Of a stretch of 64,000 nucleotides of DNA, positions 1-30,485 are shown piece by piece (the stretch's first letter is position 1; each line of letters begins with the position of its first letter). Position numbers and translations under genes: made by a program. Source of the DNA: Mycoplasmatota bacterium. Its GTDB lineage: Bacteria; Bacillota_I; Bacilli_A; Acholeplasmatales; Acholeplasmataceae. Under the pieces are notes generated by a model. It saw only the letters and a program-made list of their open reading frames with translations, was not told the origin of the DNA and ran no database searches. Location of the stretch: NCBI GenBank assembly GCA_018622495.1, contig CP076021.1:310001-374000 (forward strand). Reading direction: 5' to 3'.

Positions 1-1655
1 TTACTAAAAGATATTGAAGATGTATCAAATGAGAGAACATATTTATTTGATGCATTCTATACTGGATATTTAGAAAGTTTTGCTGCGAAACATCAACAGT
101 ACTTATACATTATTGATAAGTATCAAGAAAAGATTGATGAGTTAAATAACTTAATTGATAACAAACGTAAAGTCAATTCTGAATCCTTTGAAATGGCTCT
201 ATATCGCCATGCGCTTGATTTCTCAAATACGAAACGTATCATGGATATTAAACGTGTCTTAGATAGTCCTAAACGTATGAGTGTTAAAGCGTTTATTGAT
301 GTGTTCCAATTAGAATTAATTAATCATATACGTGTATGGATGATGACACCGTAAGTTGTCTCAGCCATTGTGCCACTTGTTTATGGTCTATTTGATTTAG
401 TCATTTTTGATGAGGCATCACAGATGTTTGTTGAAAAAGGTATACCAGCCATTTATAGAGCTAAGAAAGTTGTTATCGCAGGCGATACAAAACAGCTTCG
501 TCCATCAAGTTTAGGTATTGGTAGAGTTGATGAAGAAGATGAGTTCTATGAAGATGATGAATTAAAAGACATCACAAGAGATGCAAAGAGTCTATTAGAC
601 CTTGCAAGATATAGATATCAAGAAACAGTATTAAATTATCACTATCGTTCAATATATGAAGAGTTAATCGCATTTTCTAATCATGCATTTTATGAGGGTA
701 AACTCATTGTTTCACCAAATCAAAGTCTATCTGATAAACCTCCGATTGAATATGTCTATGTTAAAGATGGTGTGTTCGAAAATAGACGAAACAGAAAAGA
801 AGCAGAAAAAGTTGTTTTATTATTAAGAAGTATTTTAGGTAACAGAAAAAATAATGAGACCATTGGTGTCATTACATTTAATAGTACCCAAAGAGATATG
901 ATCGAAAACTTAATCGATGAACAACTCTTTAAAGCAGGGAAATATCAAAAACTATTTGAAAAAGAAATGTTTAGAACTGAAGATGGAGAAGACAAGAGTT
1001 TATTTGTCAAAAATATTGAAAATGTCCAAGGTGATGAAAGAGATATTATCATTTTCTCTATGGGATATGCTAGAGATCCACAAGGTATTGTTAGAAGACA
1101 ATTTGGGTGGTTAAATAATGATGGTGGACAAAACAGATTAAATGTTGCCATTAGTAGAGCAAAACAAAAAATCTATTTTGTAAGTTCCTTATATCCTGAA
1201 GAGTTTAAAGTAGAAGACTTAAAGAGTGTAGGTCCTAAACTATTAAAAGACTATATGAGATATTGTTATTATGTATCTGAACATAAACCAGATCAAGCAG
1301 CAACGATTCTAAAACAATTAAATGATAGACAAAAGAGGGAACAACCGACAGCATTAAGTTCTTTAAAATCAGATATTAGACAAAGACTGGAAAGAAATAA
1401 TTATACAGTCAAGACTGATGTTGGTATTGGTGGATATAATATAGATTTAGCTATTTATGATGAAGCAAATAAAGTTTATCAATTAGGTATCATTTTAGAT
1501 GTATCTGATGCATCGATATTGATGCCAGAAAAGATTTACTTCACTTAGAGAAATACTTAAAAGCAAGACATTGGAAACTTTATAGAGTATTTTCAATGAA
1601 TTGGTATAAAGATTCAAATAAGGAATTAAGAAACATAAGAAGTTTATTAAAATAA
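1..1655 (+). pseudogene. C-terminal part of SF1 helicase with C-terminal REase-like domain; internal TAA and frameshift
   Basis: The frame is open from base 1, so the 5' end lies outside the window. Visible are the SF1 Walker B-like stretch FDLVIFDEASQMF, motif III AGDTKQLRPS, the LNYHYRS motif, and the C-terminal helicase motifs NVQGDERDIIIFSMGYA and LNVAISRAK. Downstream is a segment resembling the MTES_1575/DUF559-type endonuclease fold (VKTDVGIGGYNIDLAIYDE, then LGIILD). A TAA at 352-354 interrupts the frame just before VVSAIVPL, between the upstream region and motif II. Near 1500-1535 the frame shifts: the tail continues in another frame as DLLHLEKYLKARHWKLYRVF to a stop at 1653-1655. 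Family members of this type (large AAA_12/DUF4011-like helicases) are usually well over 1000 aa. Both lesions could be real decay or sequence error. Confidence 0.8.
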
Positions 1656-1673
1656 TTATGATGGGGGTATCAT

Positions 1674-2066
1674 ATGATATTTAAGATTATTGGAGCATTT
1701 ATTGTTGGAGTATTTTTGTTTGCACAGTATCAATATATTAGACAAGTATTCTTTAAAAAGGAAGTTAATCTTAGACCTTGGTTTATAGTGTCACTATTAA
1801 CAACGACTTTAGGTACATATTTAATGTTTCTATTTATTGTGAATTTAGATGCTGGAATGGATTTATCATTTTCATATATATTTGAGGAATTACTAAGCAT
1901 CATTCTCTATATTTATGGGATCATTATGCTTGCAAGTATAGCACTTGAAGTTGTTAAGGATATTAAACTTGAAAAAAGAAGTGATTTATATTTTGATGGC
2001 TTTACAATTACTAAAATTCTAGGCTTTTTCTTATTAATGAGTTTTCTTGTTTTACTGACTGTGTAG
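1674..2066 (+). CDS. small integral membrane protein, unknown function
   Basis: This 130-aa protein is almost entirely hydrophobic, with about four membrane segments (roughly residues 3-21, 37-60, 65-93 and 112-129) separated by short charged loops such as FFKKEVNLRP and KDIKLEKRSD. I recognise no domain. It begins 19 bp after the end of the helicase tail and may be co-transcribed with it. The start has only a weak purine-rich ribosome site (GGGGG). The sequence from 2067 to 2365 carries no convincing gene, only a 14-codon frame. Confidence 0.55.
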   Translation: MIFKIIGAFIVGVFLFAQYQYIRQVFFKKEVNLRPWFIVSLLTTTLGTYLMFLFIVNLDAGMDLSFSYIFEELLSIILYIYGIIMLASIALEVVKDIKLEKRSDLYFDGFTITKILGFFLLMSFLVLLTV

Positions 2067-2365
2067 GAGAAAAATATGATTAAAATAGATGAAGGTAAAA
2101 CAGAAAGTATATACAGTTAAGAGAAGTGTGAAACAATTAGATAAAAGTTCAAAATAAAATAGAAGATTAAACCAACATAAAAAATCTGTAAGTACTTATA
2201 TTATTTTTTAAGATGATACGCAGAAATATTTGCTAACCACACTTAGATATGATGATTAAGTACACAGTGAGGAAAATCAATCTGAATTCTTAACAAATTT
2301 TTTTAGTAACATTTAAAATTTTCAAGTTATATGGTATAATTATGGTATAAAAAGGAGATAATAAT

Positions 2366-2629
2366 ATGCCCAAAATTATACCAATCAGAGAATTAAAAAA
2401 TACTGCTAGTATTTCAAAATTTGTTGAAGAATGCAATGAACCGGTTTTTATAACTAAAAACGGTTATGGTTCCATGGTCATCATGAATATAGAAGTGTAT
2501 GAAAGAGAAATTGCAAAAAGACATGTCGTAGAATTAATTAACGAATCTTTAAAAGATATTGATAATTATGATATTAAAACTGAGGGTTCGCTTTTTTTAA
2601 ATGAAATGAAAAAAAAGTATGGAAAATAG
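2366..2629 (+). CDS. Phd/YefM-family antitoxin
   Basis: This 87-aa protein starts MPKIIPIRELKNTASISKF, the typical N-terminus of Phd/YefM antitoxins: a short DNA-binding domain with the pattern I-P-I-R-E-L-K-N-T. ITKNGYGSMVIMNIEVYE then matches the conserved 'TKNGYG..V.M....YE' segment. Such proteins neutralise a RelE/ParE/Doc-type toxin and repress their own operon. A strong AAGGAG ribosome site lies 8-10 bases upstream (2350-2356), and a TATAAT-like box is near 2334-2347. The expected overlapping toxin gene is only a 19-codon stub (next entry), so the antitoxin appears orphaned. It is the first gene in the row separated by the recurring intergenic modules. Confidence 0.85.
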   Translation: MPKIIPIRELKNTASISKFVEECNEPVFITKNGYGSMVIMNIEVYEREIAKRHVVELINESLKDIDNYDIKTEGSLFLNEMKKKYGK

Positions 2630-2678
2630 AATCAAAATTTTACTGTTAATAATATTGGATACACAGTTTAAAACCTAA
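2619..2678 (+). pseudogene. truncated toxin stub after the Phd antitoxin (tentative)
   Basis: A short frame starts inside the end of the antitoxin gene, overlapping it by 11 bp in the manner of a coupled toxin, and encodes MENRIKILLLIILDTQFKT. The MENRIKIL start resembles the beginning of RelE/ParE toxins, but the frame stops after 19 codons, about 20 bp before the first 90-bp intergenic repeat. The coupling is visible; toxin identity is an inference from position and a few residues. Confidence 0.3.
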
Positions 2679-2696
2679 GATGTATAAAGCTTCGAT

Positions 2697-2785
2697 GGTC
2701 ACCAAACCTGGGCGTGAAATATAGATATCCATATCAGTCTAGTCTGATAAACACTGAAAAAAATGTGAACCCCTACGGGTCACCA
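2697..2785 (+). repeat. intergenic repeat R, copy 1 (GGTCACCA-bounded)
   Basis: About 90 bp bounded by GGTCACCAA at the left and GGGTCACCAA at the right. It shares with copies 2 and 3 the blocks TATCAGTCTAGTCTG and GTGAACCCCTACGGGTCACC. The right end folds as a hairpin, GTGA(a)CCC-ctac-GGGTCAC, at 2765-2783. It lies directly after the antitoxin/toxin stub and directly before a terminator. Confidence 0.75.
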
Positions 2786-2799
2786 ACAATTTTAGTGTC

Positions 2800-2830
2800 G
2801 TCCATCTCATTCATGAGATGGACATTTTTT
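2800..2830 (+). terminator. rho-independent terminator after R copy 1
   Basis: An 11-bp perfect stem GTCCATCTCAT/ATGAGATGGAC with a 2-base apparent loop (some pairs must open), followed by a run of six T. It ends the antitoxin cassette. Confidence 0.85.
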
Positions 2831-2961
2831 ATTCTTGTTAAGCGATTATTGAATTTAAAATTGAAGTGATTTCTCACAGTACAGAACTATATATTGAAAT
2901 ACTTAAAAGTATTAATTTGAAACAAGAATCTCCAAATAAGGAATCAACGCTTATTTTTGCA

Positions 2962-3060
2962 AAACTTATAATGATATAAGCAAAATTTAATCGTATCTTT
3001 GGAAGTTAATATATGATTTCAAAAATACAGCATAAATGTCAACTTATGTTGATATAAGTT
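2962..3060 (+). repeat. paired-palindrome module H, copy A
   Basis: Two imperfect palindromes, AACTTATAATGATATAAGC (2962-2980) and AACTTATGTTGATATAAGTT (3041-3060), start 79 bp apart. The outer arm of the first is complementary to the outer arm of the second, so a single strand of the whole unit could also fold into one long stem. The same arrangement recurs at 3881, 6109 and 8276. The rest of 2831-3335 shows no gene. Confidence 0.7.
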
Positions 3061-3335
3061 TTTGGAGCTTTTATTAAAATATGCTGTGTAAACGTGGTAT
3101 GTGTTATAAATTGTAGCGTTCGATAGAAAAGAAAGATAGAATTTGTCACAAAATAGTTAGTTTAACAAATCTAGATTTATAGAATTTTATTTCTTTGATC
3201 AATGATTGAAAATCCATGTGCTGAATGTTAAGTTTTAACTAGAGCAATCACGAAATTTATAAAAAACAATTCATGATGGCTTTTCCTTTTATTATTTGTT
3301 ATACTAAAAATACAGAATTACAATTTGGAGGGAAT

Positions 3336-3590
3336 ATGAAAAAAATTATTATTGGGGGAGTTTTCTTTTTATCTGGTTTTTTTTCAGTCTTATTGATTAA
3401 ACTTTCTAGCATCGATAATCCGGTTGGCAGTTGGAGTGATCAAACAAGGTTTGAAGCGTTTCTTGAAGAATGGAATCTTGGAATCTTATATCAATTAAGT
3501 ATTTGGCTTGTGGCTATTGGATTACTTCTTATATTAATTGAACCAGTTTTGGCTATTTATAGATATATAAAACAAAATGCAAAAAAGTAA
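3336..3590 (+). CDS. small two-span membrane protein
   Basis: The 84-aa protein has hydrophobic segments at about 4-22 (IIIGGVFFLSGFFSVLLI) and 51-72 (LSIWLVAIGLLLILIEPVLA), and a basic C-terminus (YRYIKQNAKK). I chose the ATG at 3336 because GGAGGG lies 4-9 bases before it; an in-frame upstream ATG at 3273 lacks a ribosome site. I recognise no family. It stands alone between two intergenic modules, as expected for a one-gene cassette. Confidence 0.6.
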   Translation: MKKIIIGGVFFLSGFFSVLLIKLSSIDNPVGSWSDQTRFEAFLEEWNLGILYQLSIWLVAIGLLLILIEPVLAIYRYIKQNAKK

Positions 3591-3698
3591 ATAATATACT
3601 TATAAATTAGACAGTATCTCTTCGCATCTCTTTATAAGATTAATCAAATCAATATACATAAAGTAAACAGATTTATCATTCGATATGAAATTCTACAT

Positions 3699-3737
3699 AT
3701 TAAAACTTAGGGATTCGAAACCGTTACGGGTCACCAA
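3699..3737 (+). repeat. intergenic repeat R, diverged copy 4
   Basis: Only the right end is clearly kept: CCGTTACGGGTCACCAATAT, preceded by GGGATTCGAAA. The sequence after the core (GAAACGCTCTTCTCACCCG) closely matches that after copy 3 at 9961 onwards, so repeat and terminator appear to move or duplicate as one block. Confidence 0.6.
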
Positions 3738-3751
3738 TATTAATATGAAAC

Positions 3752-3782
3752 GCTCTTCTCACCCGTGGGAAGGGCTTTTTTT
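3752..3782 (+). terminator. rho-independent terminator after R copy 4
   Basis: Stem GCTCTTCTCAC / GTGGGAAGGGC with G-T pairs, followed by seven T. It ends the small membrane-protein cassette. Confidence 0.8.
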
Positions 3783-3880
3783 CTTGATATTCATCTATTT
3801 TCTGAACTATAAATTAGACATCTATTTTATACATAAATAAAGAGTATAACTGATTTTGATTAGCTGAAATAAAATTCTAA

Positions 3881-3980
3881 AAACTTATGTGCGCATAAGT
3901 AAAAATAAAACCCAAATATAGTAAGTCCATGATAAGTTTTGGAATTTGTTCAAAAAAGACGACTTATGTTAAGATAAATT
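3881..3980 (+). repeat. paired-palindrome module H, copy B
   Basis: ACTTATGTGCGCATAAGT (3883-3900; 7-bp perfect arms) and GACTTATGTTAAGATAAATT (3961-3980) begin 78-80 bp apart, as in copies A, C and D. The middle contains GTAAGTCCATGATAAGTTTT, similar to the middle of copy D. No gene is seen in 3983-4160. Confidence 0.7.
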
Positions 3981-4175
3981 CTAGTATTTTTTCACATTAA
4001 GGTATTACCTTATGATTAATGACAAATAAAGCCATTGAGATTCAATAATTCTTTCTTATAATATGACAAATACATAGGGTTTTCTAGCTGAAAAAGAACT
4101 CTCCAAAATGTATACATGAAAAAATAGTAGATCATACTTTAAAATGATACAATAGTTATTGAAGAGGTGGGAGAT

Positions 4176-5834
4176 ATGGCAATATCTGATAATATTAGAA
4201 TATGTCGAATACAAAAGAAACTGACACAAAAACAACTTGGAGATTTGCTGTATGTTAGCGACAAAACGATTAGCAAGTGGGAAAGCGGTAGAAGTATACC
4301 AGATATAATCACAATTAAGAAAATTGCTGATATTTTAGAAGTAGATTATGGATTACTCATAGATGGAGAACACTATCGTGATGGTAAAAAAACTATATGG
4401 GACAAAATAAAATCATTTTATAACTACCAAAAGCAGCTATCAGTCTTTTCAATCATTTTATTTATTGGGTTGATTTTTATATTGTTTGCACCCGTCAAAG
4501 TGACTTATTTTATTATCATGTTTTCTCTATTTTTCTATACTATATACCTAGCAATCAAATGTTCAAGATGGTATGTCATAAATGTCCTTGTCATTGTAAT
4601 TGCATTAATGACCATAATCAGTATGTTGATCCAATTTGAATTGAGTTATTTAATCATCGTATTATTTTTTATAGCATTGATAACAATGATTATATATATC
4701 ACAAAGCAAAGTAAATCGAAGGACGATGTATTTTTGGTAAATTTTTTAGGAAATTGGAATCTATTACTTGCTACTTTTATCTATTTAAGTTCATTTACAA
4801 TAAAATACACTACGATTAATAGTGAAACTGTCATACTGGTAAATAAACAACCAGGGTTTATCATTTATGTTTTTTGTTTGATACTGTTATTGTTTTTACA
4901 ACAATATTTATATGTAAATAAAAATTATCAGGATAAAGTTGTGAAGAACATTAAAGGTAAACTTTTAAGTGTTTCTGGAGTTTCCATTTTAGTACTCTTA
5001 TTAAGTGTAATTACTGCTACAAGTATTAAATTAACTGTTGGACATATTGACATGAGTAGTGTATATGTATGGAAATCTTACTACGATGACTCTTTTACTG
5101 ATGAACAAACAAATGCAATTATAGATCTTTATGGCAAAGAAAATGTAACTTTAAGTAGATATGTAGAAATCACATCAGAGCTTCAAATTTATGCGTACAC
5201 TTCGAATTTTATTGAAAACGGAGTTGTTGTAAACACGGGTTCTAGTCTCAATCATATAGAACAAGTATCACTTTTATATGGAGAAGTTTGGGAAGAAGAT
5301 TCAACCAAAAAAGTTATAGTCATTGATAAAGATACAGCTTTAAACACTTTTGGTAAAGTTGATGCTGTAGGAGAATTCATCTCTATAAATCAAGAGCAAT
5401 GGAAGGTCATAGGAGTGGTATCAAATACAAAAGCAGCTGAAAGTTTTTTAGAAAGAGCAGTTTCAAACGGTGTTGGTCCAAATGAATTACAGCTAGACTC
5501 TTATGTGTATATTCCATTTTATTTTAAAGATTATCCATCATTTGAAATAGCACATGAAGAATATGACTTTTATGTTATTCAAACACAAAAATTTATATCA
5601 GGCGATGCAGATGAAAAAAAGATCACTGATATATTGGTTGATGGCAATAATTATGATAATTTTTATGGGGATAGACTTATAAAAATTGGGACAGTCACAG
5701 GAAGTGATATACTTTTAGAATATTTAGATATAAAAGTCGGTCTATTGATTAGTTCTAGTCTATTAGTTATTGCTATTTCAGCAAGTGAGTTGTTTCGATA
5801 CGTCAAAAAGTCTAAAAAAGAGTTTGAGAGATAG
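4176..5834 (+). CDS. XRE-family HTH fused to multi-span membrane protein with MacB/FtsX-like extracellular domain
   Basis: The 552-aa protein begins with a classic XRE/Cro helix-turn-helix (about residues 5-60; KLTQKQLGDLLYVSDKTISK, then WESGRSIPD). About seven membrane spans follow between residues 85 and 290. A soluble region of about 230 residues comes next, with MacB periplasmic-core-like features (VVNTGSSLN, LLYGEVWEE, VGEFISINQEQWKVIGVVSN). A last span lies near 525-545 (GLLISSSLLVIAISASELF). This order suggests a DNA-binding domain anchored to a permease-like sensor, but no ABC ATPase is adjacent. I chose the ATG at 4176 because GAGGTGGGAG precedes it; a GTG at 4167 is the alternative. 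The HTH call is firm, the MacB-like call moderate, and the function unknown. Confidence 0.75.
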   Translation: MAISDNIRICRIQKKLTQKQLGDLLYVSDKTISKWESGRSIPDIITIKKIADILEVDYGLLIDGEHYRDGKKTIWDKIKSFYNYQKQLSVFSIILFIGLIFILFAPVKVTYFIIMFSLFFYTIYLAIKCSRWYVINVLVIVIALMTIISMLIQFELSYLIIVLFFIALITMIIYITKQSKSKDDVFLVNFLGNWNLLLATFIYLSSFTIKYTTINSETVILVNKQPGFIIYVFCLILLLFLQQYLYVNKNYQDKVVKNIKGKLLSVSGVSILVLLLSVITATSIKLTVGHIDMSSVYVWKSYYDDSFTDEQTNAIIDLYGKENVTLSRYVEITSELQIYAYTSNFIENGVVVNTGSSLNHIEQVSLLYGEVWEEDSTKKVIVIDKDTALNTFGKVDAVGEFISINQEQWKVIGVVSNTKAAESFLERAVSNGVGPNELQLDSYVYIPFYFKDYPSFEIAHEEYDFYVIQTQKFISGDADEKKITDILVDGNNYDNFYGDRLIKIGTVTGSDILLEYLDIKVGLLISSSLLVIAISASELFRYVKKSKKEFER

Positions 5835-5846
5835 AGAATTATCAAG

Positions 5847-5935
5847 GAGCACCAAAACTATCCGTGAAATTTAGATTTCTATATCAGTCTAGTCTGTTGG
5901 TCACTGAAAAAAACGTGAAGCCCTACGGGTCACCA
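5847..5935 (+). repeat. intergenic repeat R, copy 2
   Basis: Starts GAGCACCAAAACTATCCGTG and ends CCCTACGGGTCACCAT. It shares TTTAGATTTCTATATCAG and TCTAGTCTG with copies 1 and 3. The hairpin GTGA(ag)CCC/GGGTCAC lies at 5915-5933. It begins 12 bp after the XRE-MacB gene stop. Confidence 0.75.
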
Positions 5936-5950
5936 TAATTAACCGAATAG

Positions 5951-5977
5951 TCATTCTCAATTAAGAGAGTGATTTTT
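5951..5977 (+). terminator. rho-independent terminator after R copy 2
   Basis: Stem TCATTCTC/GAGAGTGA (one G-T pair) with loop AATTAA, followed by five T. Confidence 0.65.
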
Positions 5978-6108
5978 GTCTTTGTAGAGCTGACAAGTAG
6001 ATGGAATATCATGCTAAATTGAAGTCTTTTTAGCTGATATTTGCACAATCTATTTTCACATTTTACGTATCTTTTTAGTCATTTAGGGTCTACACTCATG
6101 TTTGAAAT

Positions 6109-6207
6109 AAACTTATTTGCAGATAAACAAAATCGTTGCACAATAATGAAAACTTATAGCAAGTTTGCGAAAAGAATAAAAAACATCAACTTATGTACAG
6201 ATAAGTT
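6109..6207 (+). repeat. paired-palindrome module H, copy C
   Basis: AACTTATTTGCAGATAAAC (6109-6127) and AACTTATGTACAGATAAGTT (6188-6207) start 79 bp apart. Downstream, GGTAAACGTGGTA at about 6241-6254 is shared with the segment after copy A near 3085-3100. Apart from this module, 5978-6319 holds only the photolyase ribosome site AAGGAGG (6303-6309). Confidence 0.7.
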
Positions 6208-6319
6208 TTGGGGTAAACCTTTGTTTTTGTGTGGTACGCATGGTAAACGTGGTAAATTTTGGAATCTTAAAAAATAAGAATTCAAACTGTGTTAGAATAT
6301 AAAGAAGGAGGATGACATC

Positions 6320-7696
6320 ATGCAACATATTTTATGGTTTAAAAAAGATTTAAGAGTGTTTGATCATCAACCTCTCTTTACTGCCAGTAAGGAAGCCTCG
6401 ATTCTTCCAATCTATATCTTAGAACCATCAATCTGGAATTATGGCGATTTGAGCAATAGGCATTTAAAGTTTGTTATGGAGAGTTTAATAGATCTACAAG
6501 ACGCCTTTAAACAAAAAGGTGCAGATTTATTTGTTACTGTAGGTGAAATGGAAGATGTTTTTGAGCATCTTTTTAAGACATATGGACGGTTCAAACTATA
6601 TAGCCATAGAGAACATGGCTTAAAGCATACCTATGACCGAGATATTCGAGTCAAAAAGTGGATTAGTGATCATCATTGTGAGTGGTTAGAATTTCCTAGT
6701 TTTGCTGTGGCTCGCTATTCGAGCGAACACCCAAGAAAGAACTTTAAGGAAGAGTTACTAAAACAGAAAATATATCCAGCACCCAAAAAAATATGCTTAC
6801 CCGAGGTAATCTCATCGATTTTATCTAACCAACTAAAAGATATTGAGCATTTTCATATTCAAGGAGATTTGCCTCTAAATGGACTTCATGGTGGAGAAAA
6901 GGAAGCCATATTAAAAGCCAATGCATTTTTTAAATCACGTTATAAAAAATACAACGTTTATATCAACAAGCCTTATTATTCAATTCAATCTTCTAGTCTA
7001 TTGTCGCCATATCTCACATGGGGAAATATCTCCATCAAAGCTTTACAAATATCTACAAAAAGACATTTACTTGAACTTGAACAATCAAATGAATTTAATC
7101 ATTCACAACTCAAAGCATTTCATCAGAGAATTCAATGGCATTGCAGTTTTGTTCAAGCAGTTGAAAACGATCCCTTATTACATATTAATTCAAGAGATAT
7201 TAGATTTGAAGGTATGAGAATTCATGATTATGAAAAACTTGAAGCTTTTAGAACAGGAAAGACAGGTATTCCATTTATTGATGCGTGTATGATTGCCTTA
7301 AATCAAACAGGTTGGATTAACTTTAAACAACGTGCTACGGTAGCTTCTTTTGCATGTAATACGCTTTTACTGGATTGGAGAGATGTTGGTTATGTGTTAG
7401 CTAATCTTTGGTTTGACTATGAACCAGGTATTCATTGGCTGCAGATGCAAACTCAGGCAGGACTCATCCCTCACAGCCACATCCCACTCTATGATGTTAT
7501 AAAGCAGAGTAAAATGCACGATCCAGATGGGTTATTCATTAAAAAATATATTCCTCAGTTATCCACAGCGCCAATTCATTTGATCCATGAACCATGGTTG
7601 ATTGAAAATAATCCGTATATCTCACCCATCATCTCCTATAGAGAAATGTTTAATATGACAAAAGAGAGACTATATAAAATAAAATCATCGAAGTAG
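6320..7696 (+). CDS. cryptochrome/DNA photolyase family protein
   Basis: The 458-aa protein starts MQHILWFKKDLRVFDHQPL, the hallmark N-terminus of the photolyase alpha/beta (antenna-binding) domain. The C-terminal FAD-binding domain is seen in GIPFIDACMIALNQTGWINF, TVASFACNTLLLDWRDVGY and DYEPGIHWLQMQTQAG, matching the 'G.P.vDA.M..l..tGw', 'lliDWR.G' and 'D...n...wQ..aG' pattern. Photolyases use blue light and reduced FAD to split UV pyrimidine dimers. Cryptochromes of the same fold act as sensors, and sequence alone does not decide between them here. AAGGAGG precedes the ATG. DUF1905 follows 13 bp later, probably in the same transcript. It lies in the cassette-like row. Confidence 0.88.
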   Translation: MQHILWFKKDLRVFDHQPLFTASKEASILPIYILEPSIWNYGDLSNRHLKFVMESLIDLQDAFKQKGADLFVTVGEMEDVFEHLFKTYGRFKLYSHREHGLKHTYDRDIRVKKWISDHHCEWLEFPSFAVARYSSEHPRKNFKEELLKQKIYPAPKKICLPEVISSILSNQLKDIEHFHIQGDLPLNGLHGGEKEAILKANAFFKSRYKKYNVYINKPYYSIQSSSLLSPYLTWGNISIKALQISTKRHLLELEQSNEFNHSQLKAFHQRIQWHCSFVQAVENDPLLHINSRDIRFEGMRIHDYEKLEAFRTGKTGIPFIDACMIALNQTGWINFKQRATVASFACNTLLLDWRDVGYVLANLWFDYEPGIHWLQMQTQAGLIPHSHIPLYDVIKQSKMHDPDGLFIKKYIPQLSTAPIHLIHEPWLIENNPYISPIISYREMFNMTKERLYKIKSSK

Positions 7697-7709
7697 CGGA
7701 GGTTATAAA

Positions 7710-8036
7710 ATGAAAAAGTTATTAGATCATCAAAAATTGACCTTGATTTATCAACCTGGATTTGGATCATGGACATATCATTTGGTTATACCAAAGACAG
7801 CAAGCATCAAAGGCACATGGGGCTCTCTTAGAGTCATCGGCAAAATCGATGACTATGTCCTACATGAGCATAATCTCGCACCAAGAAAAGATGAAGATAA
7901 AATTATCTCAATCAATAAAAAAATTAGATCAACAATCAATAAATCTGGTGGAGATTTGGTTACAGTCACGCTCTATTTGCTTGAATGGTTTGACACGGAT
8001 GAGGAAATCAGTAAAGTATTTAAGACCATCATGTAA
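7710..8036 (+). CDS. DUF1905-family protein
   Basis: The 108-aa soluble protein has the DUF1905 pattern: TLIYQPGFGSWTYHLVIPK, then GTWGSLRVIGKID, then ISINKKIRSTINKSGGDLVT and VTLYL. These small beta-barrel-like proteins often sit beside regulators or light- and stress-related genes; their activity is not established. GGAGG lies 7-11 bases before the ATG, and 13 bp separate it from the photolyase gene, so the two form a two-gene unit. Confidence 0.75.
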   Translation: MKKLLDHQKLTLIYQPGFGSWTYHLVIPKTASIKGTWGSLRVIGKIDDYVLHEHNLAPRKDEDKIISINKKIRSTINKSGGDLVTVTLYLLEWFDTDEEISKVFKTIM

Positions 8037-8096
8037 TGATGCATTTGTGTTAAGATAAAAAGTTAAAATATAATTAAAATTTAATAATATACACGG

Positions 8097-8121
8097 GCAA
8101 GTATTCCGTTACGGTCACCAA
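8097..8121 (+). repeat. intergenic repeat R, diverged copy 5 (right end only)
   Basis: Only the core remains: ATTCCGTTACGGTCACCAAT (8103-8122), one G shorter than the GGGTCACCA of the other copies. It still folds as CCG-tta-CGG and is still followed by a terminator. Confidence 0.55.
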
Positions 8122-8136
8122 TATAATCATAAAACA

Positions 8137-8165
8137 GCTCATTTAAGGCAATAAATGGGATTTTT
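8137..8165 (+). terminator. probable terminator after R copy 5
   Basis: Stem CTCATTTA/TAAATGGG with a wobble and loop AGGCAA, followed by ATTTTTA. Weaker than the others. Confidence 0.5.
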
Positions 8166-8275
8166 ATATGGAGTTTTATATATGTTCAATAATTCTTTAA
8201 ATCAAAACTTTATAGATTTTTGGATAGTTTGTATTAAATTTCCTAGAAATTAGACAAAAGTCCTTAAACTTGTAA

Positions 8276-8374
8276 AACTTATAACAACATAAGCGAAATC
8301 ATCACCAGGCTAAGTAAGTTCATATCAAGTCTGTAAAAAAATGCTTAAAAATGCAACTTATATTGATATAAGTT
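8276..8374 (+). repeat. paired-palindrome module H, copy D
   Basis: AACTTATAACAACATAAGC (8276-8294) and AACTTATATTGATATAAGTT (8355-8374) start 79 bp apart. The middle has GTAAGTTCATATCAAGTCTG, close to copy B. Confidence 0.7.
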
Positions 8375-8519
8375 TTGTTAATTTTTCACTAATAGTTTGA
8401 AATGAAATAAATATGATATAACATATGTTAGATTTTATTTAAAATACATTGAGTAACATGATATAATTTTAGTAATTTCTAATTTTTTTGGGGTATATAA
8501 GAATTATACGTTATAAACA

Positions 8520-8568
8520 TATGGGAATAGAAAAATCCATGACACGTGGATATTATCTCTTACCCATA
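8520..8568 (+). promoter_or_regulatory. candidate structured leader RNA, copy 1
   Basis: Outer stem TATGGG (8520-8525)/CCCATA (8563-8568) encloses AATAGAAAA, an inner hairpin ATCCATG-ACA-CGTGGAT (8535-8551, one G-U pair) and ATTATCTCTTA. It ends 45 bases before the XRE-membrane pseudogene start. Copy 2 before the intact paralogue (11452-11501) keeps the shape with compensatory base changes. Confidence 0.6.
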
Positions 8569-8613
8569 GGTTTAAAGTTTCTTATTAAGATGATAGTGTA
8601 AAGATGAGGTGAT

Positions 8614-9818
8614 ATGATGGATCCAAAAAAAACCGGAAAGTTTATACAAGAATTAAGAAAAGCAAAAAAATTAACCCAAAATGATTTAGCGGATTTGCTA
8701 CAAGTTACAAACAAAGCCGTCTCAAGATGGGAAACTGGAGAAGGATTTCCAGATATTGTTCTTTTGCCTAGACTTAGCGAAGTCTTAAGTGTTACTATTG
8801 ATGATATTCTAAAAGGCGAGAGAATTGAAAAAATAGAACGCTATCACTCTTTAGAAAAACAGAAGTTTTTAAATGTGTACAAAATATGCCTTGCAATTAT
8901 CTCATTATCTTTTATTCTTTTCTTAGGGTTAACCTATACAACTTTTAAAGTATGGATTGGATTTATGGCTTATGTTATTCCAGCTACATTAGCGTTGGTT
9001 TGGATTTTGATTGCTCGCAGTAACTATATGATTGCTTGCGAGTATGATGATGCTGATCAAAAGATTTTATTTAATACATTTCGAACACCTATTATTATAT
9101 ATGCTACTTTGTTTACTGTGATGCTCATACAATTCTTATTTCTTGGCAGTGAAAACATACTTGACAGGACAGGTTTTCAATATACTATTTTAATTTCAAT
9201 TGTTGCCGGAGGACTAGTTTTTTTCGGTACTAGCTGGTATTTCTATAGCATTGATATAAACCATGATAAAAGAAAAATAGTTTTATACAAAAAAATCACA
9301 ATGTATTTTACTATGATTGTAATAGTAGTTTTGAGTACTTTCTTGTTATATCCTCTGAATAATATACTTCCATATGAAGGAATTCCGTTAATATCAATTA
9401 TATTTGTGTGATTTCTAGTGTATTTATTTTTTGGTATGTATTATCTGATTAAAAAGCAGAAACCATTAAATTATTTCTTCTTCAGATAGTTATAATAATG
9501 GCTTTAATTTTTATCAATTCACCCTCTAGCTTCATTGGTGGAAACTCCGCATTTTTACAAGCATTACCTATTGTAATCTATTTCATTATATTATTTATAT
9601 CAATTACTGGTTTTATTTTAAAATTTACTCATAATAAAAATGATTCATTGTTTAGATTCTATTTTCAAAACATTTTTTTACTAGTATATATGTTTTTCTA
9701 TATCTTTGGAGTAACAATGTTGGCAGTTATCATTATAATTTTTGGAGCTCTTGATATATTCATTAATAAAAAAATTGATTCAAAATCTTCAATTAATTTA
9801 AATATGAACCAAAAGTAA
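8614..9818 (+). pseudogene. XRE-family HTH-membrane protein, broken paralogue of the gene at 11549
   Basis: The N-terminal 265 codons are intact: an XRE HTH at about residues 8-62 (KLTQNDLADLLQVTNKAVSR, WETGEGFPD), then several membrane spans. The frame is cut by TGA at 9409-9411 where the paralogue has Glu (V-E-F). It then reads on as FLVYLFFGMYYLIKKQKPLN to a one-base frameshift near 9483-9490, and finishes in another frame from about 9498 to 9818 (SFIGGNSAFLQALP, FGALDIFINKKID). Aligned piece by piece with the 394-aa paralogue, the whole length is present, so this is a recent or mis-sequenced lesion rather than a fragment. GAGGTGA precedes the start. Confidence 0.8.
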
Positions 9819-9873
9819 TTATTTTCAAATATTTACAGCAGCAAATTTTTGCTATAGTATGTCATTATAAAGC

Positions 9874-9962
9874 ATCACCAAATCTATCCATGTAATTTAG
9901 ATTTCTATACCAGTCTAGTCAGATAGACACTAATGAAAGTGTGAACCCCTACGGGTCACCAA
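9874..9962 (+). repeat. intergenic repeat R, copy 3
   Basis: Starts ATCACCAAATCTATCC, shares TTTAGATTTCTATACCAG and TCTAGTC with copies 1 and 2, and ends CCCCTACGGGTCACCAAT. The hairpin is at 9941-9959. Confidence 0.75.
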
Positions 9963-9975
9963 TATATACGAAATG

Positions 9976-10004
9976 CTCTTCTCATCCGCGAGAAGAGTTT
10001 TTTT
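9976..10004 (+). terminator. rho-independent terminator after R copy 3
   Basis: Perfect 8-bp stem CTCTTCTC/GAGAAGAG with loop ATCCGC, followed by seven T. The rest of 10005-10187 shows no gene and, unlike the other modules, no H palindrome pair. Confidence 0.9.
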
Positions 10005-10187
10005 AAGATGAAAAACTAAGCATCTACGAACTTTCTGAAGAAATTTAATCACCGCATTTTTCCTTTTTGGAAGAAAGAATAAGATAAATACTTACCTCGA
10101 ATCCTTGACGTGTAAAAAAATATATGATATCATAACTTCAAGGAAAGAAAAAGTAAAAAAGTTTCTTCGAAGAAAGAATGTGATAAA

Positions 10188-11451: not shown

Positions 11452-11501
11452 CTGTGGAAATAGAAAATCCACGACACGTGGATAATATCTTTATACCACA
11501 G
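11452..11501 (+). promoter_or_regulatory. candidate structured leader RNA, copy 2
   Basis: Outer stem CTGTGG (11452-11457)/CCACAG (11496-11501), AAATAGAAA, a perfect inner hairpin ATCCACG-ACA-CGTGGAT (11467-11483), then AATATCTTTATA. It ends 47 bases before the XRE-membrane gene. Compared with copy 1 the outer stem differs at several positions, always on both sides. The rest of 11235-11451 shows nothing I can name. Confidence 0.6.
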
Positions 11502-11548
11502 GTTTACAACGCTTTATAGTGCTGATAGTCTAAAGATGAGGTGAAATT

Positions 11549-12733
11549 ATGAATGCAAAAAAAACCGGGAAGTTTATACAAGAATTAAGAAAAGCAAAAA
11601 AATTAACACAAAATGATTTAGCTGATTTGCTTCAAATCACAAACAAAGCGGTCTCAAGATGGGAAACCGGAGAAGGATTTCCTGATATAGTTCTTTTACC
11701 TAGACTCAGTGAAGTTTTAGGTGTTACTATCGATGATATTTTAAAAGGTGAACAAATTGAAAAAGTAGAAAGACGAAATGATTTAGATAAACAAAAACTT
11801 AAAAATATATATATGATATGTCTTGCTATTATTTCATTATCATTTGTGCTCTTTTTGGGGTTAACTTATACAACATTGAAAGTATGGATTGGATTTATGG
11901 CATATGTTATACCTGCGACATTAGCATTAGTGTGGATTTTGATTGCGCGTAGTAATTATATGATTAATTGCACGTATGATGAAAATGATCAAAAGATTTT
12001 ATTTAATACACTTAGAACATCAATTATCTTATATGTTGTTTTATTTGTTATTATGCTTGCTCAAGTCTTAATGCTTAGTAGTGATAACATACTTACTCTA
12101 TTTAGCGCTGAATACTTTATTTTAATATCACTTGTTGCTGGGGTATTAGTGTTTTTAGGTCTTTTTTGGTATTTTTATAGTATTGATGTAAATCGAAACA
12201 CTAATAAATTAGGTTTATATAAGAAAATCACGACGTATTTTGTTATTATAGCGATAGTAGCTTTACCTATATTTCCCATCATAGTTCCAAATAACTGGAA
12301 TTCAATCATATTATTAATACCTGTTGAATTTATACTTATTTATATGTTTTTCGGCATTTATTATCTTATCAAAAAAACAGAATCACTTAAAATGTTTTCT
12401 CTTCGCCTCGTTCTCATATTAGTTTCAATTTTTATCTATACACCTGAGAGCTTCATTGGCGGAGATTCTGCATTTGTTCAAGTATTACCTGAATTTATCT
12501 ATTTTAGTGTATTGTTGATGTCAATTGTTGGATTTATTTATAAATTTGTACACAGTACAAATGATGCATTATATAATATCTATTTTCAAAATATATTTTT
12601 CCTTATAGTTATTTTTTTCTATAACTTTGGATCTATAATAGTTATTATAATTATTAGCATTCTTGGAACACTTGATATATACTTTAATAAGAAAATAAGT
12701 GCAAAATCAGTAGTGAATCTTAATCAGAAATGA
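11549..12733 (+). CDS. XRE-family HTH with C-terminal multi-span membrane domain
   Basis: The 394-aa protein has an N-terminal XRE HTH (about residues 8-62: FIQELRKAKKLTQNDLADLL, ITNKAVSRWETGEGFPD). About ten membrane spans follow, beginning near residue 85 (IYMICLAIISLSFVLFLGLT). A motif shared with the broken copy at 8614 is SFIGGDSAFVQVLPEF. This architecture suggests a membrane-tethered regulator that senses an envelope signal; no target is visible. GATGAGGTGAA precedes the ATG. The structured leader 47 bases upstream is shared with the paralogue, so both may respond to the same signal. Confidence 0.78.
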   Translation: MNAKKTGKFIQELRKAKKLTQNDLADLLQITNKAVSRWETGEGFPDIVLLPRLSEVLGVTIDDILKGEQIEKVERRNDLDKQKLKNIYMICLAIISLSFVLFLGLTYTTLKVWIGFMAYVIPATLALVWILIARSNYMINCTYDENDQKILFNTLRTSIILYVVLFVIMLAQVLMLSSDNILTLFSAEYFILISLVAGVLVFLGLFWYFYSIDVNRNTNKLGLYKKITTYFVIIAIVALPIFPIIVPNNWNSIILLIPVEFILIYMFFGIYYLIKKTESLKMFSLRLVLILVSIFIYTPESFIGGDSAFVQVLPEFIYFSVLLMSIVGFIYKFVHSTNDALYNIYFQNIFFLIVIFFYNFGSIIVIIIISILGTLDIYFNKKISAKSVVNLNQK

Positions 12734-16665: not shown

Positions 16666-18807
16666 TTAATGACCTCTTTTCTTAAAGATAAATGGTAATA
16701 ATGTTAGTGTTAAAACAACACTAACAATCATACTTACCCACATAAGAATGCTCACATTAAAATGAATGGTAAGTGGTGAAAACATGAGTGCAGTTAAACC
16801 AAGAGATATCCCAAGAGCGTTTGCGATAATCGGTCTTGATGAATGTCCGTATGCTTCTTTAATGGCGAGATTGTTGTCATGTGTTTCACTTAGATATGTT
16901 TTATAGACACTAGAAAAATGAACTGCATAATCGATACCTACACCAATCGTGATAGAAAATATAATCACGGTTGTAATATTTAAAGGTATTTGTGATATAC
17001 CTAAGAATCCATATAAACTTAATACAGTGACTAAAATAGGTATTAAACTATAAAAAGCAATCTTTAATGATTTAAGTGTAATGATCAACATAACAAAGAC
17101 AACAGCGAAAGCTAATAGGATACTTTGTAGTTGCATTAATGAAATAGAATCATTTAAGTCTTTCATTAAGTATTGAACACCAGTCACACTTGTGTCTAGT
17201 TGCATCGCATCTACAGTATCTTCTATGTTTTCTAAGGTGCTATTATTTAAATCTATTGGAAATACGAGGATTCTAATCGTATTTGAATCTATATCCATAA
17301 GATTATGTATGGTACTATTTTCATCACTAGATACCATTTGATAAATCATAGAAACAGATTGATCGCTATTGATTTCTTGTTGTAGTTTATTTGTTGAAAT
17401 GATATTGAGTAAACGATAAGGACTCACTGGTTTAGAGACATCATTAAGTTGATTTAACGATAAGACTAAAGTGTTAACCTCATTTAGTGCATCAAGCGTT
17501 AAAACGTCTGATTTCGGCGTTATGGTGACATAAAGCGGAATACTTCCACCATTGACTTCTGCAACTTTTGATGCATTTTACGCAACAATCGTTGAATCTT
17601 TATAAACCATTAACATATTAAATTCATTATTGATTTTTCCATAATTTAATGAAGACACTATCACGATGATTAAAACAAGAAGTAAAGAAGGTAACCCGAT
17701 TAATTTCTTAAGTGATTTAGCCGGATTAAATTTCGCTTCCTTATTGTTTTTTCTAGATATATTAATACCAGTAGATAATATGAGAGGTAGGACATACCAA
17801 GTAGCAATACCTGCTAACAAAATACCAACACCCGAATAAACACTTAAATCTTTAATACTTTCAGTGTCAATGGTTAGTAGTGATAAAAATCCAGCAATAG
17901 ATGTGAGGGTAGTGACTATCATAGGGATACCAACAAGTTTAAGGGTAGATAATAAAGCTTCTTTAGTTGGTTTTCCTTCAGCTATTGAATCCTGATAATG
18001 AGACATGAAGTGAAGTCCATCAGCACTACCAATCACAATAATAAATATTGGAACGATAGCAGTTAATATAGAGACCTCATTACCAATCCATCCAATAATC
18101 CCAAATGTCCAAAGTGCGCCGATACCCGCAGGTAGGACACTTAAGAGTGTAGGTTTTATGGCACCCATTTGCCATCTAAAGACTAAAAAGATAATGATAA
18201 GAGCAAGTGGAGGTAGTAGAAGTAATATTTTAATGATATAATCTGTAATTTTCAATTGATTATATGTATCTCCAGAGATATATGAGTCATAACTATATGT
18301 ATCAAGGATATCCTCTATTGCAGTAATATTACTTGCAGTAAAATCATCAGTAATAAATAGAGTGTAAACATATGTATATTGATCTCCTTCTATTTTTAAA
18401 GGTGAAAAATCTTCAAATACAGCATAGTAGTTGATGATTTGTTCTTTTGATAGAGATGCATAAGGCACTAAAGTGCCATTGATTAATAATTCATCTGGAG
18501 CAGCACCTTCAACATAAGTTACACTACCTAATGCACTTAGTTGACTTTGAATGGCATGTACATCTTCTAAAACAGTATCAGTTAAATCATTAACCTCTGT
18601 AACAATGACTAATTGATTTAATTCTCCAAATATAGATTCTAAATCATCTAGTCTATCTTGATAAATAGATGATGTTGGTGAAAAACTAGAAAAGTTAGTG
18701 TCTAGTTTAATTTGTGTGATACCAATTAATGCAGATATATTTAATAGCATAAATAAAATGAATAAGATTTTTTTGTTTGAAAATATAAAGTTGGTATATT
18801 TTTTCAT
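16666..18807 (-). pseudogene. MMPL/RND-family transporter, interrupted by an in-frame TAA
   Basis: The 714-codon frame encodes an RND-type exporter of the MMPL family. It has an N-terminal span, an extracytoplasmic domain, then a sterol-sensing-like span bundle (WTFGIIGWIGNEVSILTAIV, GSADGLHFMSHY), and the same arrangement in the second half (SITIGVGIDYAVHFSSVYKT). A TAA at 17578-17580 (minus strand, codon after GCG) splits it. Both halves are otherwise intact and in the same frame (..DSTIVA, stop, NASKVAEVNGGSIPLY..). Such proteins move lipids or drugs using the proton gradient. The gene is followed without gap by tetR. Confidence 0.85.
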
Positions 18808-23930: not shown

Positions 23931-23965
23931 TCTGTTATAATCAAAAAATGACAATAGGAGGCGAA

Positions 23966-24574
23966 ATGATGGGTAATTTTATTGAATTGCAAAAAGCTTG
24001 TGATATTAGTGCTGGTTTAGTTCCTAAAAGAAAAGAAGCACGAAGTGATGATAAAGTTGCAAAAATTTACAAACTGATTACTTTGAAAAGTTTTGATGTT
24101 GATGGTTGGATTGATTTGAAATACTTAGATAATTTTAAAAGTATAGAAATACTTGATGAACGCTATTTAACAAAAGAAAACGATATTCTTATACGCTTAA
24201 GTAATCCATATACAGCAATCAAAATAACTGATGAATATATAGGTTTTGTAATACCGTCATTGTTTGCGGTGATTAGAATTAAAAAAGATATCATTGATCC
24301 TGATTATTTGACTTTTATGCTTAATAAAGAAAGCATTAAGCGATCGTATTTTAAAAATTCCATGGGATTAACCATTCCAATGATTAGGATGCAAACTATT
24401 CGAGAAACAAAAATTCCATTAATTTTAAGCAATAAACAACTTATAGTATCTAAAATATATAATTTAATGATTAAAGAAAAAATGCTATATCAACAACTAC
24501 ATTTAGAAAAAGAAAAATATAATAAAGAAATAACGAAAAGAATAGTTATTGGAGGGAATAAAAATGCAAAATAA
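23966..24574 (+). CDS. half-size type I specificity (HsdS-like) subunit
   Basis: The protein of about 202 aa resembles a single target-recognition domain plus coiled coil of a type I S subunit. The TRD-like part has YKLITLKSFDVDGWIDLKYL and YLTKENDILIRLSNPYTAIK ('d.lI.....'). The end is IPLILSNKQLIVSKIYNLMI then a Lys/Glu-rich helix, as in 'lP.l.eQ..I......'. Full HsdS proteins have two such units; this has one. It overlaps hsdM by 11 bp. AGGAGG precedes the ATGs at 23966/23969. It could supply an alternative half-specificity or a regulatory S subunit. Confidence 0.7.
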   Translation: MMGNFIELQKACDISAGLVPKRKEARSDDKVAKIYKLITLKSFDVDGWIDLKYLDNFKSIEILDERYLTKENDILIRLSNPYTAIKITDEYIGFVIPSLFAVIRIKKDIIDPDYLTFMLNKESIKRSYFKNSMGLTIPMIRMQTIRETKIPLILSNKQLIVSKIYNLMIKEKMLYQQLHLEKEKYNKEITKRIVIGGNKNAK

Positions 24575-26090
24575 ACAATGGACTCAAAAAGAAGTAAATG
24601 AAACATTATGGCGTGCATGTGATACGTTTAGAGGAAAAATCGATTCATCAATTTATAAAGACTATATATTAGTTATATTATTTATGAAATACATTAGTGA
24701 TGTTTATAAAGAACATTACGAAAAGCTATTAATAAAGTATGATGGTGATAAAGAAATGGTTAATCGCCAAATAAAATTAGACAGATTCACACTGAATGAT
24801 ACATCGTCTTTTGATAATTTATATCAAAATCGTAATGCTTCTAATATTGGTGAAATCATAAATAAAGCGTTAGCGGATGTAGAAGAAACTAACAAAACAA
24901 AGTTACGTGGTGTATTTAAGAATATTGATTTTAATTCAGAATCAATATTAGGAAATACAAAAGAACGTAATACAATGTTAAAAGATTTACTAGAAGATTT
25001 TAGCAAGCTTGATTTACGACCTTCTCGTTTATTAGGAGAAGATGTCATTGGGAATGCATATGAGTATTTGATCTCAAACTTTGCATCTGATGCTGGTAAA
25101 AAAGGAGGGGAATTTTTCACCCCGTCCGAAGTATCAGAACTTTTGTCAAGACTTGTTAAACCAGAAGAAAATGATAGAATTTATGATCCTACATGTGGAT
25201 CAGGTTCGTTATTAATTAAAGCATTTGATAAAGTACCTTCAAAAAAAGCTCAAATTTATGGTCAAGAGCGAAATGGTCAAACTCAGTCTCTAGCCAGAAT
25301 GAATATGTTCTTACATGGAATCGATGATGCAAAAATTGCATGGGGAGATACAATTGCTAATCCGTTACATATAGAAAATGATAAATTAATGAAGTTTCAG
25401 GTAGTTGTAGCAAACCCACCATTCTCACTGGATAAATGGTCATCAGGATTTTCAGGTGATTCAAATGGAGATTTCAAGATGGAATCATCATTAGATCCTT
25501 ATAAAAGATTTGAATGGGGAGTACCTCCTAAATCAAAAGGTGATTATGCGTTTGTAGAACATATGCTTCATTCGCTTGCTGAAGGTGGACGTATGGGTGT
25601 TGTTTTACCACATGGTGTTTTATTTCGTGGAGCAAGTGAAAAGAAAATCAGAAAAGCAATTATTGATTTAAACTTACTTGATGCAGTGATTGGATTACCA
25701 GCTAATTTATTCTTTGGAACAAGTATTCCTGCAACAATATTAATATTTAAACAAAATAGAAATAGAGATGATATATTATTTATTGATGCATCTCAAGATG
25801 GTATGTATGAAAAAGGTAAAAACCAAAATAAACTTAGAGAAGAAGATATCAAACGTATTGTTGATGCATATGATAAATATAAAACAGAAGATAAATATAG
25901 TTATGTAGCGACTAAGAAAGAAATTGAAGAAAATGAATATAATCTTAACATTCCTAGATATGTTGATACTTTTGAAGAAGAAGAATTGGTTGATTTGAAA
26001 GAAGTGAAGAAAAATATTGAGTCTATTAAAACTGAACTTGAAGAAGTTGAAGCTGAGATGGAAAAATATTTAGAAGAACTAGGGTTGTAG
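24564..26090 (+). CDS. hsdM: type I restriction-modification methyltransferase subunit
   Basis: The 508-aa protein has the N-terminal HsdM helical domain (WTQKEVNETLWRACDTFRG). The adenine methyltransferase core follows: GGEFFTPSEVSELLSRLVKP, AdoMet motif DPTCGSGSLLIKA (about residue 208), catalytic NPPF in VVANPPFSLDKW, and GVVLPHGVLFRGASEKKIRK. With two S halves it methylates adenine at the type I recognition site and, with HsdR, forms the restriction complex. I chose the ATG at 24564 because GGAGGG precedes it; this start overlaps the half-S gene. hsdS follows immediately. Confidence 0.95.
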   Translation: MQNKQWTQKEVNETLWRACDTFRGKIDSSIYKDYILVILFMKYISDVYKEHYEKLLIKYDGDKEMVNRQIKLDRFTLNDTSSFDNLYQNRNASNIGEIINKALADVEETNKTKLRGVFKNIDFNSESILGNTKERNTMLKDLLEDFSKLDLRPSRLLGEDVIGNAYEYLISNFASDAGKKGGEFFTPSEVSELLSRLVKPEENDRIYDPTCGSGSLLIKAFDKVPSKKAQIYGQERNGQTQSLARMNMFLHGIDDAKIAWGDTIANPLHIENDKLMKFQVVVANPPFSLDKWSSGFSGDSNGDFKMESSLDPYKRFEWGVPPKSKGDYAFVEHMLHSLAEGGRMGVVLPHGVLFRGASEKKIRKAIIDLNLLDAVIGLPANLFFGTSIPATILIFKQNRNRDDILFIDASQDGMYEKGKNQNKLREEDIKRIVDAYDKYKTEDKYSYVATKKEIEENEYNLNIPRYVDTFEEEELVDLKEVKKNIESIKTELEEVEAEMEKYLEELGL

Positions 26091-26099
26091 GTGAATTTA

Positions 26100-27317: not shown

Positions 27318-27327
27318 TGCTGTACTC
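27304..27327 (+). promoter_or_regulatory. perfect hairpin between hsdS and hsdR
   Basis: GAGTACAGC-CATGAT-GCTGTACTC, a 9-bp perfect stem that contains the hsdS TGA stop. No T-run follows. It could slow or partly end transcription before hsdR, or protect the upstream mRNA. Confidence 0.6.
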
Positions 27328-27350
27328 TACTTCCAATTGAGGTGAAATGA

Positions 27351-30476: not shown

Positions 30477-30485
30477 GCAATAACT

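Follow-up and report, generated by a model that had tools for sequence, protein, structure and literature searches.

The stretch of DNA analysed here, hereafter the window, comprises 64,000 nucleotides of the forward strand of contig CP076021.1 (positions 310,001 to 374,000; GenBank assembly GCA_018622495.1) of a Mycoplasmatota bacterium of the family Acholeplasmataceae. Its left end is occupied by a tandem array of five gene cassettes, which starts upstream of the window behind a tRNA-Glu gene and whose members are separated by 12-bp copies of the 3′ end of that gene (the core, TACGGGTCACCA). Near the left end of each cassette lies a pair of palindromes, H1 and H2, with a middle of about 60 bp between them. 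The H1/H2 unit is probably a conserved cis site of mobile cassettes which integrate at the tRNA-Glu 3′ end.

The four pairs located in the window (Table 1) have H1-to-H2 start distances of 78, 79, 78 and 79 bp. They had been noticed in an earlier inspection of the letters without database searches (the sequence-only reading), which gave distances of 79, 79-80, 79 and 79 bp; all four pairs exist, and the figures were about 1 bp off. When the pattern of two ACTTAT-N6-ATAA palindromes was searched with the gap left free at 50-64 bp, its matches in the window were exactly the four pairs, and none occurred in 100 dinucleotide shuffles, which establishes the enrichment over shuffled AT-rich sequence on which the earlier proposal depended. 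The signal resides in the pair, because lone H sites with up to three mismatches are hardly enriched in the window (36 versus 25 expected). A fifth pair is located 2.7 kb upstream of the window, and the five pairs were used to build a covariance model (R1). In the 1.6-Mb genome of the window, exactly five matches with E < 1e-12 were obtained and none of the next ones was stronger than E 0.1. The genome-wide search suggested by the sequence-only reading thus recovers the five pairs with a clear gap to the next matches, and H pairs are nearly absent elsewhere in this genome.

In relatives, the covariance model revealed some 70 further H units. Matches were found in 26 of 101 genomes, the window's own counted, and in 16 of 296 genomes from a sample of the class, two further families being represented. 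Model matches are selected for spacing, and a count without imposed distance was made separately, in which all distances between H-like sites located 60-400 bp 3′ of 103 cores were taken. The distance was 78 bp in 51 and 79 bp in 4 of the 72 pairwise distances, the other listed distances occurred once each, and a control interval gave 5 pairs altogether. The claim of a constant spacing is thereby borne out for 55 of 72 unbiased distances; variable spacing in further copies had been named as evidence that would speak against it, and the further copies mostly keep 78-79 bp. No known RNA family in Rfam matches the unit, and no homologous unit was found in the phages, plasmids and viral contigs searched. 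Three viral-contig matches of the loose pattern were discarded as chance (covariance-model E 0.54). Viral tRNA-Glu matches look like ordinary phage tRNAs or attachment (att) sites of unrelated phages.

The tRNA-Ser(GCT)-tRNA-Glu(TTC) gene pair is intact at G000:C1:306949-307120 (G000 being the window's own genome), with tRNA-Glu at 307045-307120, and cassette 1 starts directly behind it. The array loci examined total 663 kb and contain 103 copies of the core, all of them on the array strand and none on the opposite one. H units lie behind tRNA-Ser-tRNA-Glu in every fetched locus of the relatives that includes the tRNA, and two genomes of another family (G223 and G335) have them behind a gene for tRNA-Glu(CTC). 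In relatives that gave no model match, the tRNA-Glu loci are devoid of H pairs. Set distances behind the tRNA-Glu 3′ end or its copy were observed for 47 of 51 H units, and 58 of 80 cores are followed by an H pair in the att-proximal arm. The distance from core to H1 is mostly 142-226 bp, with main classes near 145, 156 and 178 bp, which fit whole helical turns poorly, and a helical phasing between core and H1 was therefore dropped.

The cassettes are ordered as core, terminator, H1/H2, cargo, right end and core. All pairs in the window are preceded by a core, of which only 10 bases are left at the fourth, and mostly by an intrinsic terminator as well. Right arms are of three kinds: type A with CAGTCTAGTCTG, type B with CTCGGGAAAAATCGTGAACC and type C, which resembles a tRNA T-arm. 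In 25 arrays, the core-to-core modules have a median length of 2.4 kb, and 160 of 171 open reading frames (ORFs) point the same way. The cargo includes restriction-modification (R-M) parts, Fic proteins, toxin-antitoxin proteins, HTH-MacB proteins, sensor domains and photolyase. The own array holds six cores, one of them decayed, and five H pairs, in agreement with accretion at the tRNA, which predicts such counts. Additionally, one relative has a second core-plus-H unit (L184, G026:C1:1711548), which is partly decayed and lies a long way from that genome's tRNA-Glu array; the 15 kb fetched for this locus contain no intact tRNA.

The boundaries of the mobile unit were defined by comparison between genomes, one genome per species being used. 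Cassette 3 and its homologue in another genus (G003) show 82-100% nucleotide identity in most 50-base windows from core to core, with minima of 56-66% at two places within the coding region, while beyond both cores the identity drops to about 30-56% in nearly all windows. The cassette 3 proteins share 87.4% of their amino acids, compared to a median of 68.6% for ten neighbouring chromosomal proteins. Similarly, copies of a two-gene cassette from different genomes share 87-97% identity, and its neighbours, where comparable, share 62-67%. Since the two cores delimit the identity precisely, and further cassette pairs likewise have their right boundary at a core, the mobile unit consists of core, terminator, H1/H2, cargo, right arm and core. 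The palindrome pairs are thus, as the sequence-only reading had supposed, parts of mobile gene cassettes, which have been transferred horizontally across genera.

Table 1. Features of the cassette array at the left end of the window (positions of the window; the H pair of cassette 1 in coordinates of G000:C1).
Feature	Position	Strand	Remarks
Cassette 1, whole			5665 bp; starts upstream of the window behind tRNA-Glu; own H pair at 307298/307377
Cassette 1, right part	1..2785	+	helicase fragments, PhdYefM antitoxin
Right-end arm of cassette 1, type A (..CAGTCTAGTCTGAT..GTGAACC)	2702..2773	+	repeat family D2; aligned right ends
Core TACGGGTCACCA, cassette 1/2 joint	2774..2785	+	copy of tRNA-Glu 3′ end
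Cassette 2	2786..3736	+	951 bp; one ORF, 105 aa
Intrinsic terminator behind core	2800..2830	+	
H1 of cassette 2	2963..2981	+	AACTTATAATGATATAAGC
Middle of unit 2	2982..3040	+	kept AAGTT at 3003-3007; second AAGT repeat diverged here
H2 of cassette 2	3041..3060	+	AACTTATGTTGATATAAGTT
Core, cassette 2/3 joint	3725..3736	+	left boundary of horizontally shared unit
Cassette 3	3737..5935	+	2199 bp; HTH-MacB-domain protein, 555 aa, 4167-5834
Intrinsic terminator	3752..3782	+	
H1 of cassette 3	3882..3900	+	
H2 of cassette 3	3961..3980	+	
Core, cassette 3/4 joint	5924..5935	+	right boundary of horizontally shared unit
Cassette 4	5936..8120	+	2185 bp; DNA photolyase 6320-7696, DUF1905 protein 7710-8036
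Intrinsic terminator	5949..5979	+	
H1 of cassette 4	6110..6128	+	
H2 of cassette 4	6188..6207	+	
Decayed core ACGGTCACCA, cassette 4/5 joint	8111..8120	+	
Cassette 5	8121..9961	+	1841 bp; HTH_3 protein 8614-9411, ORF 9498-9818
H1 of cassette 5	8276..8294	+	
H2 of cassette 5	8355..8374	+	
Last core	9950..9961	+	no H pair behind; right end of array
Intrinsic terminator behind last core	9975..10005	+	

Several genes of the window appear to be damaged. In cassette 1, a large gene for a helicase/nuclease (AAA_12, MTES_1575; L021:17895-20000, window 1-1655) is split, with a stop near position 353 and a break near 1548, and looks like a pseudogene. Two paralogous HTH_3 genes are 82-86% identical at the DNA level (window 8532-9068 and 11464-12000); the copy at 8614 in cassette 5 is broken into two ORFs, and the copy at 11549, just outside the array, is intact (394 aa). 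Outside the core-bounded array, genes for an MMPL-family transporter (16666-18807) and a malic enzyme (45790-46947) each seem to be split in two by frameshifts. Also outside it, a type I R-M locus (23948-31211) comprises a part of HsdS, HsdM, HsdS, HsdR and a YgjP-like protein and resembles, in gene order and protein sizes, the R-M set of one of the large elements described below (G026).

H1 and H2 are each composed of 7-base arms and a 6-base centre, and the mutual complementarity of their outer arms, already described in the sequence-only reading, was confirmed. The middles, which that reading took to differ, are not free. In a position profile of 40 units with less than 75% identity, two AAGT(C/T) repeats 11 bp apart (+40..44 and +51..55) and an AAAA run at +70..73 are conserved. 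In all, the unit has six AAGT-like half-sites, in two palindromes and two direct repeats. The palindromes, the fixed spacing of 78-79 bp, the inner AAGT repeats and the near-absence elsewhere in the genome favour a protein-binding array, and as judged from these sequence features H1/H2 is best read as such an array and not as a fold. Of the earlier alternative of one protein complex or a folded strand, the complex acting on both palindromes is the better half, and the fold is unsupported.

The five cassettes of the window's array have att-like cores on both sides, as in cis-mobilizable elements (CIMEs), and no recombinase was found in them. The array loci tested contained no tyrosine recombinase, IntI-like or other, in a search that included a positive control, and a tyrosine integrase was consequently rejected as the cognate enzyme. 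Some array genomes (G013 and G044) possess just two tyrosine recombinases, judged from their scores and sizes to be the Xer pair. The tandem tyrosine-recombinase pair of the own genome was rejected likewise, since it lies at a distance from the array and is missing in several array genomes. Its two genes (L025 and L026, G000:C1:1112085-1113605; 324 and 313 aa) are located beside a Doc-like gene and a transposase fragment, and similar tandem pairs are present in several relatives. The XerD-like gene of the own genome (L023, G000:C1:968686-969589) appears to be broken into ORFs of 153 and 119 aa, owing to either a sequencing error or a real lesion.

The search for serine recombinases revealed pairs of large serine recombinases (LSRs) in four arrays (G026, G045, G023 and G049), whose two members form two orthologous families. 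These pairs are located in elements of 24-28 kb (helper elements) which are bounded by the same cores as the small cassettes. An H pair is present at the left end of all three elements for which that end was retrieved; that of the G049 element was not located. The LSRs contain Resolvase, Recombinase and Zn-ribbon domains, and their best NCBIfam match is SCCmet_CcrB (E 1e-35 to 1e-43). The Ccr-like pair was found only in the helper elements of these four relatives and not in the window. The helper elements also encode a Cch-like replicative helicase, in which DUF927 and HTH_56 (the Cch helix-turn-helix) exceed the Pfam cut-offs and which matches SCCmet_Cch1 with E 7.5e-46 (157 bits versus a cut-off of 700). 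Moreover, they share a backbone of about ten small genes with RadC, DUF960, HU-like and Cro/C1-type proteins; DUF960 (PF06124, E 1e-22) corresponds to one of the small ORFs of ccr complexes, and a 71-aa HTH_3 protein is conserved in 3 of the 4 helpers. A different recurrent element of the relatives, in which two LSRs adjoin one tyrosine recombinase, lies on contigs other than those of the arrays (e.g. G041:C36, G045:C2, G057:C57 and G016:C34).

Since the helper elements share their ends with the small cassettes, the latter are most likely moved in trans by these large relatives encoding the Ccr-like pair and Cch. According to this model, a new cassette would recombine at the core, thereby restoring the tRNA end, and would bring its terminator and its H1-60-H2 unit, displacing older cassettes outward, and an intact array of n cassettes should contain n+1 cores and n H pairs. 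Most cassettes carry cargo only and would be moved by the CcrA/CcrB-like LSR pair. The H1-60-H2 unit would most likely act as a double-stranded protein-binding array of fixed geometry, and its reading by a helper factor would lead to the replication or mobilisation of the excised cassette.

Two explanations that dispense with this model are very improbable. In an integron-like system, H1 and H2 would be the two simple sites of an attC, folded from a single strand and recognised by a tyrosine recombinase. The seven-base arms, the 6-nt centres, the variable middle and the complementary outer arms would suit such a site, and integrons likewise consist of arrays of small promiscuous cassettes in one orientation, as seen here in modules of about 2.4 kb whose ORFs mostly point the same way. 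However, the boundaries fall at the tRNA-Glu core and thus mostly 142-226 bp from H1, not at H1/H2, and neither IntI nor another tyrosine recombinase was found in the loci tested. The local hairpins do not covary (429 of 500 shuffles were as good), the 6-nt centres do not co-vary significantly in non-redundant units (p=0.10), and the end-to-end pairing shows weak covariation (4-7 of 500), at a level that relatedness alone can give. The single-strand folding energies, which the sequence-only reading had proposed as a check, are ordinary and alike on both strands (z-scores -0.2 to -2.1). None of the marks of an integron, namely IntI, a joint inside paired simple sites and compensatory conservation of a fold, was therefore found. 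It is hardly credible either that the pairs are immobile, whether as an ancient tandem duplication that became fixed or as a regulatory element with a housekeeping role at the tRNA-Glu locus: the pairs of the own genome do all lie at one locus and in one orientation, but array-free tRNA-Glu loci lack H, other families use a different tRNA-Glu gene, and the cargo varies by cassette and is shared across genera above the identity of neighbouring genes.

Regarding the role of H1/H2 within the preferred model, a replication or mobilisation site is proposed tentatively. In its most definite form, which is possible at best, H1/H2 would be the origin of the excised circle and would be bound by the Cch-like initiator helicase, as Rep of Staphylococcus aureus pathogenicity islands (SaPIs) and Cch2 of the staphylococcal cassette chromosome (SCC) bind iterons. 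The helpers do carry a helicase with the Cch helix-turn-helix domain, H is present in helpers and satellites alike, and the distance from core to H varies, so that H need not face the recombinase. The six half-sites recall the SCC Cch2 iteron AAGTG (PMC7581432), a match which may be accidental because Cch and Cch2 are unrelated families (PMC7581432). Several observations weigh against the preferred model. No H is located beside cch, where the origins of SCC and SaPI sit, and an A+T-rich unwinding element is not seen in the unit (A+T of 0.734 in the middle versus 0.739 in the flanks). In the three elements compared, H does not follow the Cch clade: the H units of G026 and G045 are alike with Cch helix-turn-helix regions only 22% identical, which argues against Cch as the H-binding protein, and G023 and G045 have similar Cch and dissimilar H units. 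Furthermore, the LSR pair reaches about 120-146 bits versus the CcrB cut-off of 900, and many array genomes, including the window's own, lack an intact LSR; such arrays, the window's among them, may therefore be inert or use another enzyme. In the same three elements, the similarity of H tracks that of LSR-B (81% between G026 and G045), as would be expected if H1/H2 served the Ccr-like recombinase complex as an accessory or directionality site. This role, also no more than possible, would accord with the frequent position of H in the att-proximal arm and with a fixed 78-bp spacing suited to a nucleoprotein complex. On the other hand, the att sites of enterococcal and staphylococcal cassette chromosomes measure about 50 bp, with distant sites unmentioned in the available part of the source (PMC6222049), and the distance from core to H is variable. 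It is doubtful that H1 and H2 are twin operators at which the 71-aa Cro/C1-type repressor of the helpers would exert control or silencing. Palindromes of the form 7+6+7 are typical operators of Cro/C1 dimers, and the protein is kept in most helpers, but there is no apparent reason for an operator on tiny cassettes with unrelated cargo, and promoter-like sites are not enriched in the region. Any other role is given still less weight.

In order to relate the helper elements to known systems, their genes were compared with the gene set of cassette chromosomes (PMC7581432 and PMC10581047). They resemble SCC/SCCmec (the MRSA resistance cassette), the ECC of Enterococcus and CI-ccrDE (at rimL) in the paired LSRs, the Cch-like helicase (DUF927 plus Cch helix-turn-helix) and DUF960, and also in carrying R-M genes as cargo, in inserting with direct repeats into the 3′ end of a conserved gene and in forming tandem composites. 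In contrast to SCC, the target is tRNA-Glu and not rlmH or rimL, most cassettes are tiny and lack a recombinase, and nearly every element carries the H1/H2 unit of fixed geometry, of which no SCC description was found. The elements are called SCC-like and not SCC, because their recombinases and helicase score far less than the curated cut-offs demand and because they insert at a tRNA gene. The Dehalococcoides ssrA islands (DsiA/DsiB) are the nearest precedent: these serine-recombinase islands, some of them recombinase-less, follow one another in tandem behind an RNA gene, with copies of the gene's 3′ end at their borders. Their serine recombinase is related to CcrB, and 15 islands lack, while 16 possess, integration modules (PMC3146451). 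They differ in their tmRNA target, their reductive dehalogenase genes and their distant phylum, and the part of PMC3146451 considered here reports no paired palindrome unit. CIMEs and accretion in streptococcal integrative and conjugative elements (ICEs) are comparable in that recombinase-less units with att sites are stacked at one site and can be mobilised by a relative. Unlike here, the recombinases of streptococcal ICEs are usually tyrosine integrases, and no conserved H-like unit is known from CIMEs or these ICEs.

It is concluded that the array belongs to an SCC-like family which targets tRNA-Glu and includes many non-autonomous cassettes, probably served in trans. No earlier description of elements of this kind in Acholeplasma-like bacteria was found in the open-licence literature searched. 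The family would place cassette-chromosome-type elements far outside Staphylococcus, targeting a tRNA gene and accompanied by numerous minimal satellites of which the cited SCC papers give no description. An SCC origin has been proposed only recently and replication in vivo is undemonstrated (PMC7581432); the fixed H1/H2 unit offers a concrete cis signal by which recombinase-less cassette elements may be replicated or mobilised. Tentatively, the system could be regarded as a serine-recombinase counterpart of the integron, made up of helpers and satellites, in which any short DNA flanked by the 12-bp tRNA-Glu core plus the 100-bp H1/H2 unit would become a mobile cassette; H1/H2 would then be the portable signal by which the helper recognises a cassette for replication or mobilisation. 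The core and the model R1 together provide a simple means of listing the cassette gene pool of these bacteria, including R-M, toxin-antitoxin and Fic-family genes.

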